From contig NW_012236516.1 in the NCBI RefSeq assembly GCF_000787575.1, forward strand, positions 2,126 to 66,125: DNA of 64,000 bases, given 5' to 3'. Source of the DNA: Acytostelium subglobosum LB1 (Eukaryota > Evosea > Eumycetozoa > Acytosteliales > Acytosteliaceae). The notes under the pieces are model-generated. The model was not told the origin of the DNA. It worked only from the letters and a program-made list of their open reading frames with translations, and ran no database searches. Numbering within the stretch: the first letter of the stretch is position 1; each line of letters starts with the position of its first letter. The position numbers were made by a program, and so were the translations under genes. Positions 32,137 to 38,116 of this stretch are shown here, one piece after another.

Positions 32137-32347
32137 CAACAACAACAATATCTAGATTAATATATATATACATGTACAATGAATGAAAGCTCGCACGAGC
32201 GGCTTAATAAATGAGACGGCGACGACTACTCTCTGAGTTAGTGTGTCGCGCTACTTGAAGAAACAGATAAAACTTGGAATTGGAGTTGGATTGTTTGATG
32301 AGCCAACCCATCCAGTCACTCATTTGATCAAACAGATAAAGATAGAG

Positions 32348-35050
32348 ATGGAGAGAGATATAGATCAACTGTTAAGACATGTATTGTTGATCAATGTTAT
32401 TACAAGAGATTATGTGTTTGGATGTATGAGTTGGATACATGGTAGGCTGGGACTGGTGGCCTGTCGTGGACGTGATATGGTCAGTATAGAGACATGTCTA
32501 GCATGTAAAGAAGACAAAAGGTTCAAACTATACTTTGAACAACTATATGCTAGAGGCAGTACAATAAGTGGCGGTGGTGGAGTTGGCTATGATATGTTAT
32601 GTACGGCACTCAAACAAATTGCCAACAATGACAATGACAATGACGAGGAACCAGAAGGCGTCATACACAATGACGTTACAAGATACTTGATCAAGACGAT
32701 CAAACGCACTCTTGCACAATGCCTCAAGACCAACAATCATCTAATGTTTGGATATATCATTGATCACTTGCGACTGCCATTGCTAAATACTGGCGACCCC
32801 AACACCAACACCAGTCCTCTGTCAGACTTGCACTTTAATGAATTCATCAAAGACCTGCATCTGGGCATTGAACACGACAAGATCTACTTGAGCCGTGCAT
32901 TCATTAACTTGATCATCGATGCGCCCTGGCCTGCACCAACCTCACTCGTCAAGCTAATGGCCATCTCTGCGCTGGGTCGACATGCAGACGTCAACCTGTT
33001 CAAAGAGATAGTGACACGAAACTGGCGACATCGTGCCGTTATACTCTATCACATGGGCATGCCCGCCTCGGTTGGAGAGCTGGAGAAGGACGATCACAAT
33101 CGACTCTTTGTTCAAATGGAGATTGGACATGGACAGGCAAGAGACGAGGACATCCTCCAGCTGGTTGACTTCTATCACACACTGACGGAAACACGTGAGC
33201 TTGAGGGCAAGTTCTATCTCAAGCTGCTGGGTCTGGCTTTGCTCAACAGGCGATGTAGTGTGGCCTTGCGACTCGTGGAGCTTGCCGATAAACAAACAGA
33301 GTTGGTCATCTATCACAAGTTATTGGCAGAGTATGCAGATGCCAGTGTGCTCGACGCACTCGACTATCAACTGCCAGAAATTTCAGTTGACCAGAAGTTC
33401 GTATTGGATGAGCTATTGGCAATGGCTGCACAAAATGGCAATATGGACTACCTTCAACATATCCATCCTCAACTTGTTGAGACCATCAGTGAGATGGACT
33501 TGTCCCAGCATCCCGATGAATGTCCATTCTCCATTGGTCGCGTAGACCTTTTAAAAAAGGCATTGGACAATGGACACTTTGAATGTGCTCGTTATCTCAT
33601 CGAATATTATGGTCCATTACGAATCAATGCCATGGGAACATACCAAGAATACACTCGATGGTCCATCCATGGACTACAGATGAATGATTCAACAGTGGAT
33701 ATGATCAGCTGGCTCCTGGAAACCAATGGTATGTATCATGATGCCTCCGCGTCAATCAAACATTCAAACACTAACCCGTTGGAATCACTCCGCTCCATTC
33801 AATCAATCAATCTCAAAGATCAATCAGAAGATGTTGTAACATTTAAAATCAACAAGTTGTTTAAGCAGGCGATAATGGCCAGAAGAATGGATGTACTCGT
33901 GCGGTTGGAACAGGCGGTCTCTGATCCACGCTTGGCGGTATCAATGCCACATTTACAGAATGATTATTGTTCAATGGTATCGATTCATAATACATTGAAT
34001 GATGCCATCAATCAACAATACTCTGAAGCCATTCAATTCCTTTTGATCAATCATTTCTCAACAACAACAACTGCAACAATGAAGAATGGAGAAGACAACC
34101 AACCAAGATCATTATTATTGGATATGGAAGATATATCAAAGTGCGACTTGGATACTCAACGCCTGGTATTCTCAACTCTCAAACCTGGCCAGATCAGAGT
34201 GATGTATCCCAAGGGTGGCACATACAAGTCAACTTTGGACACATTGCAAATGATGAATGAGTATGGACATTTTGAAGCAGTAGGGACATGGGTGTCACAG
34301 AGCAAGCTGGCCATGTTCAAGACGGCGGCCGTATTACCTGGCGGGTATGACATCATGACCGGGCTTTACGATACCCCTCACACGGCTCACCTCAGCCTCT
34401 TTGAGGAGGTGTGTCAGCGGTCTGGAGACGTCAGGGTGCTGCGGTACCTCATCGATCATGGCTATAAATATCATGTGTCAATGACAATCAACAAGGCGAT
34501 GAGTGGCATGAACAAGGAGGCCATTGATTTCCTGCTGAGCACAGACGATCACCTTCAACGCCACCCTGTGGCCAAAGCTGGATACTTCCTCTTTGATGAT
34601 GTAGTCTCCTATCTTGAGTCCTGCAGACGATATCATACACATGCCGAACGTTATTGCGACTTCTTCCCCTTTGTCTGGGAACGCATTGATCCAGACAACA
34701 AGCTCGACACTGAATCAATCAAACGAATGATGTCGGCAGTCAATATCAACCTGCCTTTGTACATGACGTTGTTAGACTTGGTCAGTGAGCTGCCGACAGC
34801 TTGGTCCAAATCATTCATCCCACCGCCCAAACTATCATGGATAGCTGGATATCAAATCCTGAACAAAGACACAGTCATCACCGTTGATGCCAACATACAG
34901 CCATTCAACAGGCATAGCCAGGTCTATCAGACGAAGTACAGTCCAATTGTCCAGCCATTAGCCAAGCACAACTACAAGTCCTACCAACGTCTACTAATTG
35001 CCAATGGACTAGTTGTGTCATCCATGCATTATAGAGTCAACACGGAATAA
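32348..35050 (+). CDS. Ankyrin-like repeat protein of a dictyostelid family
   Basis: About 900 residues, intronless. The first in-frame ATG is 32348 (MERDIDQLLRHVLL); the frame is open back to about 32243 without an ATG, so an upstream exon is possible. An N-terminal helical head (FGCMSWIHGRLGLVACRGRDM) resembles that of the large dictyostelid families with degenerate ankyrin repeats. Repeats recur about every 33-45 residues in the form GHFECARYLIEYYG, GDVRVLRYLIDHGYKY and MNKEAIDFLLSTDD, mostly weak. No catalytic domain is seen. The head looks F-box-like in hydrophobic spacing but this is not secure. Expected role is protein binding. Confidence 0.7.
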   Translation: MERDIDQLLRHVLLINVITRDYVFGCMSWIHGRLGLVACRGRDMVSIETCLACKEDKRFKLYFEQLYARGSTISGGGGVGYDMLCTALKQIANNDNDNDEEPEGVIHNDVTRYLIKTIKRTLAQCLKTNNHLMFGYIIDHLRLPLLNTGDPNTNTSPLSDLHFNEFIKDLHLGIEHDKIYLSRAFINLIIDAPWPAPTSLVKLMAISALGRHADVNLFKEIVTRNWRHRAVILYHMGMPASVGELEKDDHNRLFVQMEIGHGQARDEDILQLVDFYHTLTETRELEGKFYLKLLGLALLNRRCSVALRLVELADKQTELVIYHKLLAEYADASVLDALDYQLPEISVDQKFVLDELLAMAAQNGNMDYLQHIHPQLVETISEMDLSQHPDECPFSIGRVDLLKKALDNGHFECARYLIEYYGPLRINAMGTYQEYTRWSIHGLQMNDSTVDMISWLLETNGMYHDASASIKHSNTNPLESLRSIQSINLKDQSEDVVTFKINKLFKQAIMARRMDVLVRLEQAVSDPRLAVSMPHLQNDYCSMVSIHNTLNDAINQQYSEAIQFLLINHFSTTTTATMKNGEDNQPRSLLLDMEDISKCDLDTQRLVFSTLKPGQIRVMYPKGGTYKSTLDTLQMMNEYGHFEAVGTWVSQSKLAMFKTAAVLPGGYDIMTGLYDTPHTAHLSLFEEVCQRSGDVRVLRYLIDHGYKYHVSMTINKAMSGMNKEAIDFLLSTDDHLQRHPVAKAGYFLFDDVVSYLESCRRYHTHAERYCDFFPFVWERIDPDNKLDTESIKRMMSAVNINLPLYMTLLDLVSELPTAWSKSFIPPPKLSWIAGYQILNKDTVITVDANIQPFNRHSQVYQTKYSPIVQPLAKHNYKSYQRLLIANGLVVSSMHYRVNTE

Positions 35051-35197
35051 AAATGTGATCAAACACACACAACTTCATCATCATTATCTTTTCAAAAGCG
35101 ATTTTGATGGCCTCACAAGGCCCACCACAGGACCAATCAAACATTCATTCTTCCAATCATTCTTACACATCAATATATAACAACAAACAACATTAAG

Positions 35198-36349
35198 ATG
35201 ATGAATCAAAGGATACTCAGAAGTGTTGTTGGTACTGTGAACAGGACAGGTCAATCATCGACACCATTGATGATGGGTTTGATTCGTCCACATCAATCAT
35301 TTGGTGCACCAACCACCACTACAATCAGACTATACTGTTCAGTGGCTCCCACTGTACCACATGACCAGAAGATCATTGTTGTCACCTCTGGCAAGGGTGG
35401 CACGGGCAAGGTATGTCTCCCTATATCATGATCAAATGTGATCACTCAATCATACTCATACTCACACATCACATATCTAGACAACAAGCAGCAGTTCATT
35501 CTCATATGGTCTGGCAGAGAAAGGCTTCAAGACATGTGTTATTGACTTTGGTAAGGACTAGACTTGATCGACACCAGGGACTATCCCTCCCTACCCGACA
35601 CTCACACGAACAAACACGATCACACTCAACATCAACGATCAACAACAGATATTGGTCTTAGAAACTTGGACATTCACTTTGGAATGGAGCGTAGAGTAGT
35701 CTTTGACTTTATCAATGTGTTGAATGGCGATTGCACACTGAGACAGGCTTTGATCAAGGATAGGAAGAACCCCAACTTGTACTTGCTTGCCGCATCGCAG
35801 ACAAAGGACAAGACTGCACTCAAGATGGAGGCGGTCGAGAAGGTGTTGGACGAGCTGCGCGAGAGCTTCGACTACATTGTGTGCGACTCACCTGCTGGCA
35901 TTGAGAGTGGCGCCCACCACGCCATGTACTGGTCGGATCAGGCCATCATCTGCACCAACCCCGAGCTGTCATCTGTGCGCGACTCTGACAAGATGTTGGG
36001 CATCCTGGCAAGCAAGTCGAAGCGTGCGCTCGAGGGCAAGGACCCAATCAAGCTTAACCTGCTCATCACAAGATACTCGCCAGAGCGTGCTGAGAGTGGC
36101 GGCATGCTGTCCGTCAAAGATATACAGGAGAACCTTGGCATCAAGCTGATTGGCGTCGTGCCAGAGTCCCAAGATATCCTGACGTGCACCAACCTTGGTC
36201 GTCCCGTCATCACACTGGACAAGGCATCGGATCCCGCTGAGGCCTATCGCGATGTTGTCGAGAGATTCCTCGGTGATCCCAAACCATTCAGATTCATTGA
36301 GCCCAAGCCCACTGGTCTCTTCTCCAAAATGTCAAAGCTCTTTGGTTAA
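35198..36349 (+). CDS. minD: MinD, septum-site ATPase, mitochondrially targeted
   Basis: Exons 35198-35410, 35481-35550 and 35649-36349 give about 327 residues. Residues 1-50 are rich in Arg, Ser and Thr with no Asp or Glu (MMNQRILRSVVGTVNR...), a transit peptide that bacterial MinD lacks. The deviant Walker A motif SGKGGTGKTT spans the first intron; then VIDFDIGLRNLDIHFG, FDYIVCDSPAGIESGA (Walker B-like), and at the C-terminus GLFSKMSKLFG, the amphipathic membrane-targeting helix of MinD. In bacteria MinD with MinC and MinE positions the FtsZ ring; here the likely site is the mitochondrial inner membrane. Three introns-worth of eukaryotic structure (two introns) rules out bacterial contamination. 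No minC or minE is seen in the window. Confidence 0.95.
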
Positions 36350-36463: not shown

Positions 36464-37432
36464 TCAGGAATGTGTAGACTTGAGGTCCTGATAGAACTTC
36501 TTGTAGAGTTGAAGACTTGGATGTCTATGGATAAAGTCGTCAGTGGCAATATTTAGGAAATACATAGTTGCAAAGTCTGGATTCGTAATAGAGATGGCTA
36601 TGTTCTCCTTTGATTGATCACCATTGAAGTGTACGCCAACGAACTCTCCATATGACAAAGGAGATCCTATTGGTCCACCAGCAACTCCTCGAAGTTTAAA
36701 GACTCCTTTTAGATAGTCCCATATTGACTCTTGTCTGACCTTTGTAACATTTATCACTACCAGATGTTCGTTGATTTTTGGATTGCTCCTCAAATCCTGG
36801 TGAAGCACTACAAGGTCGTTCTCAGAGTAATTCAGGAGGTTGTCATCACTGAGCTTCTTGAAAGATACTGATTGAGGGTATCCAATCAGAAAATAATGAG
36901 GAGATTCAACTGGAGGGAAATGAGGAATAATATATTGGATCTCCTTTGGAACTTTGTTAACGAATTGGAGTATTATCAATGGGAAATCCAATTCCCATAT
37001 TGGCTGAGAAGGACAAAGTTCATAAGCATTTGGATTCTCTTGAATGTGATCAGTATCAACTTCTCCATCAGTAGCGTCTACTCCATAGTATATATAAATG
37101 TTGCTCAAAGAGTAACCTAAAGTACTTTTCTTATGGACATGTTTGGAAGTTATAACCATGTTCTCACTAACATTGAATCCAGTTCCATAACACCAGATTG
37201 GATCATAATCAATGTCTCCGCTATCATATCTCCAGAATATCCTTCCAACTGATTTGGAGCATGTCTCTATCTGTTCTTTTAGAGTTTGTTCGAGTACACT
37301 ACCAATGAGTTCATTTCTCGAGTTGACAGAGTGTATAGATACCTCTTGGTCTTCGAATTTCCAATGTATCCTCTTTGTCCTTTGTTTTTCTATTGTCTCA
37401 TCTACATAATACAAATCAGTGTAATCTTCCAT
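36464..37432 (-). CDS. Trypsin-fold peptidase-like protein, catalytic Ser replaced
   Basis: A single exon of 322 residues without signal peptide. Chymotrypsin-like pattern: GTGFNVSENMVITSKHV with the His at 98, an Asp in WELDFPLIILQ (about 149), and RGVAGGPIGSPLSYGEFVGVH where GxSGGP is expected. The nucleophile position 251 is Ala, so proteolysis by the normal mechanism is not expected. A cytosolic binding or decoy role is possible. HFPPVESPHYFLIGYP fits the strand before the S1 pocket. Base composition is more AT-rich than its neighbours, as is common for young dictyostelid families. Convergent with minD, 114 bp apart. Confidence 0.75.
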   Translation of the reverse strand: MEDYTDLYYVDETIEKQRTKRIHWKFEDQEVSIHSVNSRNELIGSVLEQTLKEQIETCSKSVGRIFWRYDSGDIDYDPIWCYGTGFNVSENMVITSKHVHKKSTLGYSLSNIYIYYGVDATDGEVDTDHIQENPNAYELCPSQPIWELDFPLIILQFVNKVPKEIQYIIPHFPPVESPHYFLIGYPQSVSFKKLSDDNLLNYSENDLVVLHQDLRSNPKINEHLVVINVTKVRQESIWDYLKGVFKLRGVAGGPIGSPLSYGEFVGVHFNGDQSKENIAISITNPDFATMYFLNIATDDFIHRHPSLQLYKKFYQDLKSTHS

Positions 37433-38116
37433 TCTTAATTATAACTACTTACATATATTTAGTTAATATTGAAATGAAGAGCTTGAGTAGTGAACAAGTA
37501 TTAGAAGTTGGACAGATGTCAATTTCTTGGTATGAATCTGTATGACCAAATATGGTTATGAACAAGGACAAAGAATATATACTAACACTAACTAATACCT
37601 TTATTGTCATTACTGTATGATTGTTGTCATTTAAATGTACAGTTAACTAATACTACTATTATTATAATACCTTGTTTGTTGATTGATTGAGATGGATGAG
37701 TTGAACGAATAAATACCGATTGACTAATTGATTGATTGATTGATTGTGATGGATGATTGAATGAAACTGACTGACTGTTAAGCATGGACCTGGAAGCCAG
37801 GGACCCTATACTCAATGGACAATAATAAAAGGGGAGTTGTGTATGTGGACTAATGTGGAGGAAGTTGAAGTAGTTGGATGTATGTGTGTATGAGGTGATG
37901 GTGATTGAAGAGGGATGGGATGGATGGGATAGGGAAAGCTGCGTTCTTCAGGCGGCTTCCTTCAATTCAATTCAATTCATTTCGACGGAGAGAGAGAGAG
38001 AAAGAGAGAGTGAGAGAGTCTAGACTGGGTTGTTGAGCGCGCGCCTCCAAGTTGTTTCGAAACGTGTCGTACAGGGGGGTTGATAAGAGGAAGGAGGAGA
38101 TGGATAGACTACATTC
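37433..38116. other. Spacer between trypsin-like gene and Rab1
   Basis: Holds the trypsin-like promoter (leftward) and the Rab1 3' UTR. ATTG repeats (37728-37745), an AGAGAGAG tract (37985-38015) and GAGATGGATGAG-type runs are present. No gene was recognised. Confidence 0.4.

Follow-up and report, generated by a model that had tools for sequence, protein, structure and literature searches.

The MinD locus

The window analysed here is a stretch of 64,000 nucleotides from the genome of Acytostelium subglobosum LB1 (contig NW_012236516.1), and a gene for MinD lies on its forward strand at positions 35198 to 36349. Read from the first ATG, upstream of which there is an in-frame stop at 35105, the spliced product has 327 amino acids. 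The first-pass annotation had described a complete MinD in three exons, and the frame does splice with two GT-AG introns; its last 303 residues are those of the NCBI prediction SAMD00019534_080310 (P0001, A. subglobosum LB1), which starts 24 residues further downstream. This is a genuine gene and not a chance reading frame, and the longer N-terminal start is proposed as an improvement on the NCBI model. The features are as follows.

35198..36349, plus strand: whole MinD gene, three exons (splice model, 327 codons and a stop)
35198..35410, plus strand: exon 1, with the predicted presequence and the first part of Walker A, last residues GTGK (splice model)
35198..35359, plus strand: predicted mitochondrial presequence, residues 1-54 (from charge, moment and N-terminal extensions in relatives)
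35411..35480, plus strand: intron 1, 70 bases, GT-AG, phase 0 (splice model)
35481..35550, plus strand: exon 2, Walker A completed (TT), through VIDF (splice model)
35551..35648, plus strand: intron 2, 98 bases, GT-AG, phase 1 (splice model)
35649..36349, plus strand: exon 3, with the switch region, the CDSPAG Walker B-like motif, the C-terminal helix and the stop (splice model)
36314..36346, plus strand: C-terminal amphipathic, predicted membrane-targeting helix GLFSKMSKLFG (aligned to the tails of bacterial MinDs; moment 0.63, with p 0.02 against shuffles)

Walker A is interrupted by intron 1, between GTGK and TT. The exon 3 frame alone scores 267.2 bits against the MinD model TIGR01968, above its cut-off. 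The neighbouring open frame at 32237-35050 (plus strand, 937 residues) gives sub-threshold ankyrin-repeat matches only, and that at 36464-37438 (minus strand) has no Pfam match at E 0.01.

Family identity of the protein

The spliced protein scores 324.5 bits against TIGR01968 (minD_bact), for which the curated cut-off is 212.9, and 369.4 bits against the narrower PRK10818, under the cut-off of 508. Its motifs are the deviant Walker A SGKGGTGKTT with the signature lysine, the switch region DFDIGLRNLD, and CDSPAG. The deviant Walker A and the Walker B-like region noted in the first reading are therefore present, and they align with those of 15 other MinDs. Across the 16 aligned proteins CDSPAG is invariant, DFDIGLRNLD varies only between I and V, and Walker A varies at a single position, which is T in A. 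subglobosum and Heterostelium album and V in the others. The top matches among PDB sequences, over the ATPase core, were 6riq_C (353 bits, a 'Site-determining protein') and 3q9l (339 bits, septum site-determining protein MinD, which we take to be that of Escherichia coli). Both have an ATPase core like that of the A. subglobosum protein but belong to the bacterial cytosol, and they have no presequence, since the matches begin at chain residue 3. Judged by its profile scores and motifs, the protein is a bacterial-type MinD.

The chance that an ordinary Fe-S carrier ATPase of the Mrp/NBP35/NUBPL type has been misread as MinD is negligible: such proteins share the P-loop superfamily, and the Pfam ParA model (NUBPL iron-transfer P-loop NTPase) gives MinD 58.1 bits, over its cut-off of 27.1, but MinD reaches just 50 bits against MrpORP and 25 against ApbC. 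The genome's three other frames that match minD, in contrast, score 31-39 bits against minD_bact, 177-323 against MrpORP and 168-216 against ApbC. In the careful tree described below these three Mrp-type frames split off at a 100/100 branch, their branches being very long. The scores together with this separation rule out an Mrp/NBP35 identity, the outcome that would have told against the first-pass annotation.

Predicted presequence and C-terminal helix

An N-terminal presequence had also been proposed, and from the 327-residue start the protein does open in a basic, acid-free and presequence-like manner. Residues 1-54 contain five K/R and no D/E, and the 11-residue stretch RILRSVVGTVN is amphipathic (shuffle p 0.03). 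If the NCBI start (residue 25) is used, the predicted presequence has about 30 residues with two K/R and no D/E, and a moment within that of shuffles (p 0.24). An N-terminal extension was present in the alignment in 12 other rows taken as eukaryotic and in none of the three taken as bacterial. The charge count, which left out P0008, the twelfth of these rows, gave extensions of 27-59 residues, with basic residues in excess of acidic in 11 out of 11. The sequences RLYC-SV in MinD and RQF-ST in MinC resemble sites of the processing peptidase.

The C-terminal stretch GLFSKMSKLFG, read in the first pass as an amphipathic helix, lies above shuffles as listed. The corresponding p values were 0.03 for H. 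album, 0.04 for D. purpureum and 0.055, ie weaker, for P. violaceum. This is a weak measure, because by it Pseudomonas, Thecamonas and Stygiella have MinD tails that do not rise above shuffles (p 0.47-0.54).

Phylogeny of MinD

A quick tree was made from 94 rows, comprising 15 taken as eukaryotes, 16 gamma- or betaproteobacterial loci, five alphaproteobacterial plasmid loci and 58 other Pseudomonadota. The eukaryote rows included dictyostelids, Vannella (Amoebozoa), Paraphysomonas and a diatom (ochrophytes), Thecamonas, Stygiella and Malawimonas, among others; P0003, P0007, P0018, P0073 and the metagenome protein P0008 were also taken as eukaryotic. A branch with SH-aLRT 100 sets all 15 sampled eukaryotic MinDs apart from the other rows. 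Within the dictyostelids A. subglobosum adjoins H. album, the two being 95% identical over 267 columns, and P0011, which is the diatom Pseudictyota dubia by its taxid, groups with the eukaryotes. The careful tree, for which the three Mrp-type frames served as outgroup, had 29 rows and left out P0011. It again placed the eukaryotic MinDs on one side of a branch, with support of 100/100; the rooted drawing shows 80/100 at the fork.

Two of the relatives are of unusual construction. In P0003, a EukProt model, a DUF1674 (PF07896) segment, MinD and a fragment of tRNA pseudouridine synthase are joined, and this is probably a merged gene prediction. In the MinD-like protein P0004, from a metagenome, the second half of MinD occurs twice, through a tandem duplication or an assembly fault.

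The first-pass annotation had suggested a tree that would show alphaproteobacterial or plastid affinity. The MinD trees covered eukaryotes and Pseudomonadota, and no cyanobacterial or land-plant name was recognised among the named rows of the best 120 of 7999 MinD matches. The protein groups with eukaryotic MinDs; the alphaproteobacterial grouping is absent from the best tree, ie in the free quick tree the eukaryotic MinDs are not with the sampled Alphaproteobacteria. When 14 eukaryotes were constrained to group with 23 alpha-side rows, the cost was 4.27 log units, and this grouping was not rejected (p-AU 0.362). The alpha side of this test consisted of four MinDs from plasmids of named species, together with 19 genomic MinDs which group with them and were chosen after sight of the quick tree; a Roseomonas row and P0011 were left out as long or odd. 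MinD was matched at E 1e-60 or better in 66 of 200 sampled Pseudomonadota genomes. The A. subglobosum MinD is probably a remnant of the bacterial ancestor of mitochondria.

That the dictyostelids recently acquired a gamma- or betaproteobacterial minD is very improbable. Among the best 120 of 7999 MinD matches the bacterial rows with a name, few in number, are indeed Gammaproteobacteria, and the names that could be placed among the 80 genome-scan loci kept are gamma- or betaproteobacterial. Against this, 14 other eukaryotic MinDs, drawn from several supergroups, share with this MinD one side of a branch of length 0.41, with the full support given above; two introns split the gene, and its product opens in a presequence-like manner; and MinC and MinE, each with dictyostelid relatives, are found on other contigs. 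Bacterial contamination, like recent transfer, is an unlikely source of the gene in view of its introns, its eukaryotic grouping and the 698 kb length of its contig.

Partner genes

The first-pass annotation had proposed a search of the genome for MinC, MinE and FtsZ, and matches to all three were found. MinC and MinE are on contigs other than that of MinD. MinC was matched at a single place (128.8 bits in the profile search, cut-off 95.25). Its spliced model of 345 amino acids scores 157.2 bits against the same cut-off, with 35.4 bits for MinC_N (cut-off 27.3) and 99.8 bits for MinC_C (cut-off 33.2). The N-terminus reads MLRHCIKRLEG...TTRQFSTAKS, its first 45 residues containing six K/R and two D/E (p 0.007), and the protein has a long low-complexity linker. 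The NCBI model at this locus (C46:405000-408500), P0121, consists of only the last 211 residues, and the annotation therefore has neither the presequence-like start nor most of MinC_N. We propose an improved gene model in which this absent first part is added.

MinE was likewise found at a single place. As a single exon it scored 25.9 bits, under the cut-off of 49.3. When spliced it is a protein of 116 amino acids, identical to NCBI's P0241, which scores 57.2 bits against Pfam MinE (cut-off 25) and 48.9 against NCBIfam minE, 0.4 under that cut-off of 49.3.

C56, about 796707-797133: MinE gene; the protein opens with an amphipathic basic helix, followed by the TANIAKER segment

Its N-terminal letters are MSLSSFRQIISKVFNHTSQQQVTANIAKER, and there is no separate presequence ahead of the helix. 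The helix stretch SFRQIISKVFN lies above shuffles (p 0.009). H. album MinE has a similar start, in which the helix is not clearly above shuffles (p 0.08). The RSGQQ of MinC and the TANIAKER of MinE, which have roles in MinD binding, are both kept.

FtsZ gave six matches in the genome, a pair on contig C51 (229.8 and 129.2 bits), a pair on C54 (160.2 and 153.2 bits) and two others of 25-26 bits elsewhere. None reaches the TIGR00065 cut-off of 295.2, the best being 229.8. The C51 and C54 pairs look like two FtsZ genes divided by introns. The second match at C54:1580800-1583300 contains an internal TAG, so that this pair may be either damaged or wrongly joined across an unmodelled intron. MinC, MinD, MinE and FtsZ are thus all matched in one nuclear genome, FtsZ as exon pieces under the whole-protein cut-off.

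Distribution in the dictyostelids

The named dictyostelids were the same four, A. subglobosum, H. album, D. purpureum and P. violaceum, among the best 120 of 7999 matches for MinD and the best 120 of 572 for MinC. For MinE, three of four candidate proteins were matched, from A. subglobosum, H. album and one further relative. D. purpureum does not appear by name among these three, which, the word filter being strict, is no proof of absence.

The name of D. discoideum was not found in the best 120 of 7999 MinD matches, the best 120 of 572 MinC matches or the three MinE matches. Absence of its MinD is likely because an orthologue as near as that of D. purpureum would rank in the list. The statement in the first-pass annotation that D. 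discoideum has no Min proteins is consistent with the named rows of the MinD and MinC matches listed, and on the basis of those matches D. discoideum likely has none.

Comparison with known systems

The 2015 PNAS study of Leger et al. reportedly described mitochondrial Min/FtsZ in jakobids, heteroloboseans, a malawimonad, stramenopiles, amoebozoans, a breviate and an apusomonad. D. purpureum proteins are said to have been localised in that work via expression in yeast. D. purpureum MinD (P0005) is 76% identical over 88% of the A. subglobosum query and has a similar N-terminal extension, core and C-terminal helix; its Walker A is GKGGVGKTT, compared to GKGGTGKTT in A. subglobosum. Stygiella incarcerata MinD groups with that of A. 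subglobosum and is 65% identical to it. Stygiella and Andalucia godoyi are jakobids, a lineage distant from A. subglobosum. In a passage citing Leger et al. 2015, A. godoyi is given MinC, MinD, MinE and two FtsZ, ie a set in one protist like that found here (PMC7050145).

The occurrence of Min in mitochondria of scattered eukaryotes, as stated in the first-pass annotation, agrees with passages on scattered protists in PMC7314023 and PMC7050145. The same passages remove the novelty which it implied, as mitochondrial Min/FtsZ was already published for such protists, D. purpureum included. According to PMC7314023, which cites Leger et al. 2015, D. purpureum has kept an FtsZ-dependent mitochondrial system, and PMC8134430 describes the Min/FtsZ apparatus as ancestral and kept in subsets of protists. 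A protein of Malawimonas already carries the database name 'Mitochondrial MinD'. No paper on Acytostelium MinD or FtsZ, or on 'mitochondrial MinD' or 'mitochondrial Min', was found in the open-licence literature. In D. discoideum, FszA and FszB, which are dictyostelid FtsZ and not Min proteins, are believed to take part in mitochondrial dynamics (PMC7016976), according to a paper whose main text nowhere mentions MinD, MinC or 'Min proteins'. The A. subglobosum MinD is an ordinary member of an already known mitochondrial Min system.

Proposed function

Very probably this is a nuclear gene for a mitochondrial MinD, the orthologue of that of D. purpureum, which acts within a complete MinC/MinD/MinE/FtsZ set in placing the FtsZ ring. 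From its N-terminus the protein is predicted to be mitochondrial, and the presequence would direct its import into the matrix. By analogy with the bacterial Min system we infer that MinD would dimerise on ATP, and its C-terminal helix would insert into the inner membrane from the matrix side. Membrane-bound MinD would recruit MinC, which would prevent FtsZ polymerisation there, and MinE would stimulate hydrolysis and so release MinD, which may thus cycle on the membrane, as the first-pass annotation had supposed. The FtsZ ring would consequently form at the chosen site. The same analogy underlies the suggested import, ATPase cycle, contacts with MinC and MinE, and division-site placement in A. 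subglobosum.

MinD might instead have been retained with a changed role, such as patterning of mitochondrial membranes or nucleoids without placement of FtsZ. Overexpression of FszB-GFP lowers mitochondrial dynamics in D. discoideum, so that dictyostelid FtsZ need not be a plain division ring (PMC7016976), and the long low-complexity linker of the A. subglobosum MinC also speaks for a changed role. We consider this improbable, as the matches to MinC, MinE and FtsZ in the one genome are what selection on the whole pathway would be expected to leave.

Placement of the FtsZ ring thus remains the preferred role. A bolder extension of it, which we offer tentatively and would not ourselves bet on, is that MinCDE may form a working, self-organised pattern on the inner membrane, that MinE may lack its own presequence and use its N-terminal membrane-binding helix (MSLSSFRQIISKVFN) as the import signal too, and that the dictyostelids, through patchy retention of the system, may provide a natural series of losses of a mitochondrial Min oscillator.

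The interest of the locus lies in the complete Min/FtsZ set of a dictyostelid and in the N-terminus of its MinE, rather than in the existence of MinD. The dictyostelids include D. discoideum, a laboratory model, and A. subglobosum adds to the group a complete nuclear-encoded Min/FtsZ set. It names the genes with which to ask whether Min patterns form inside mitochondria.
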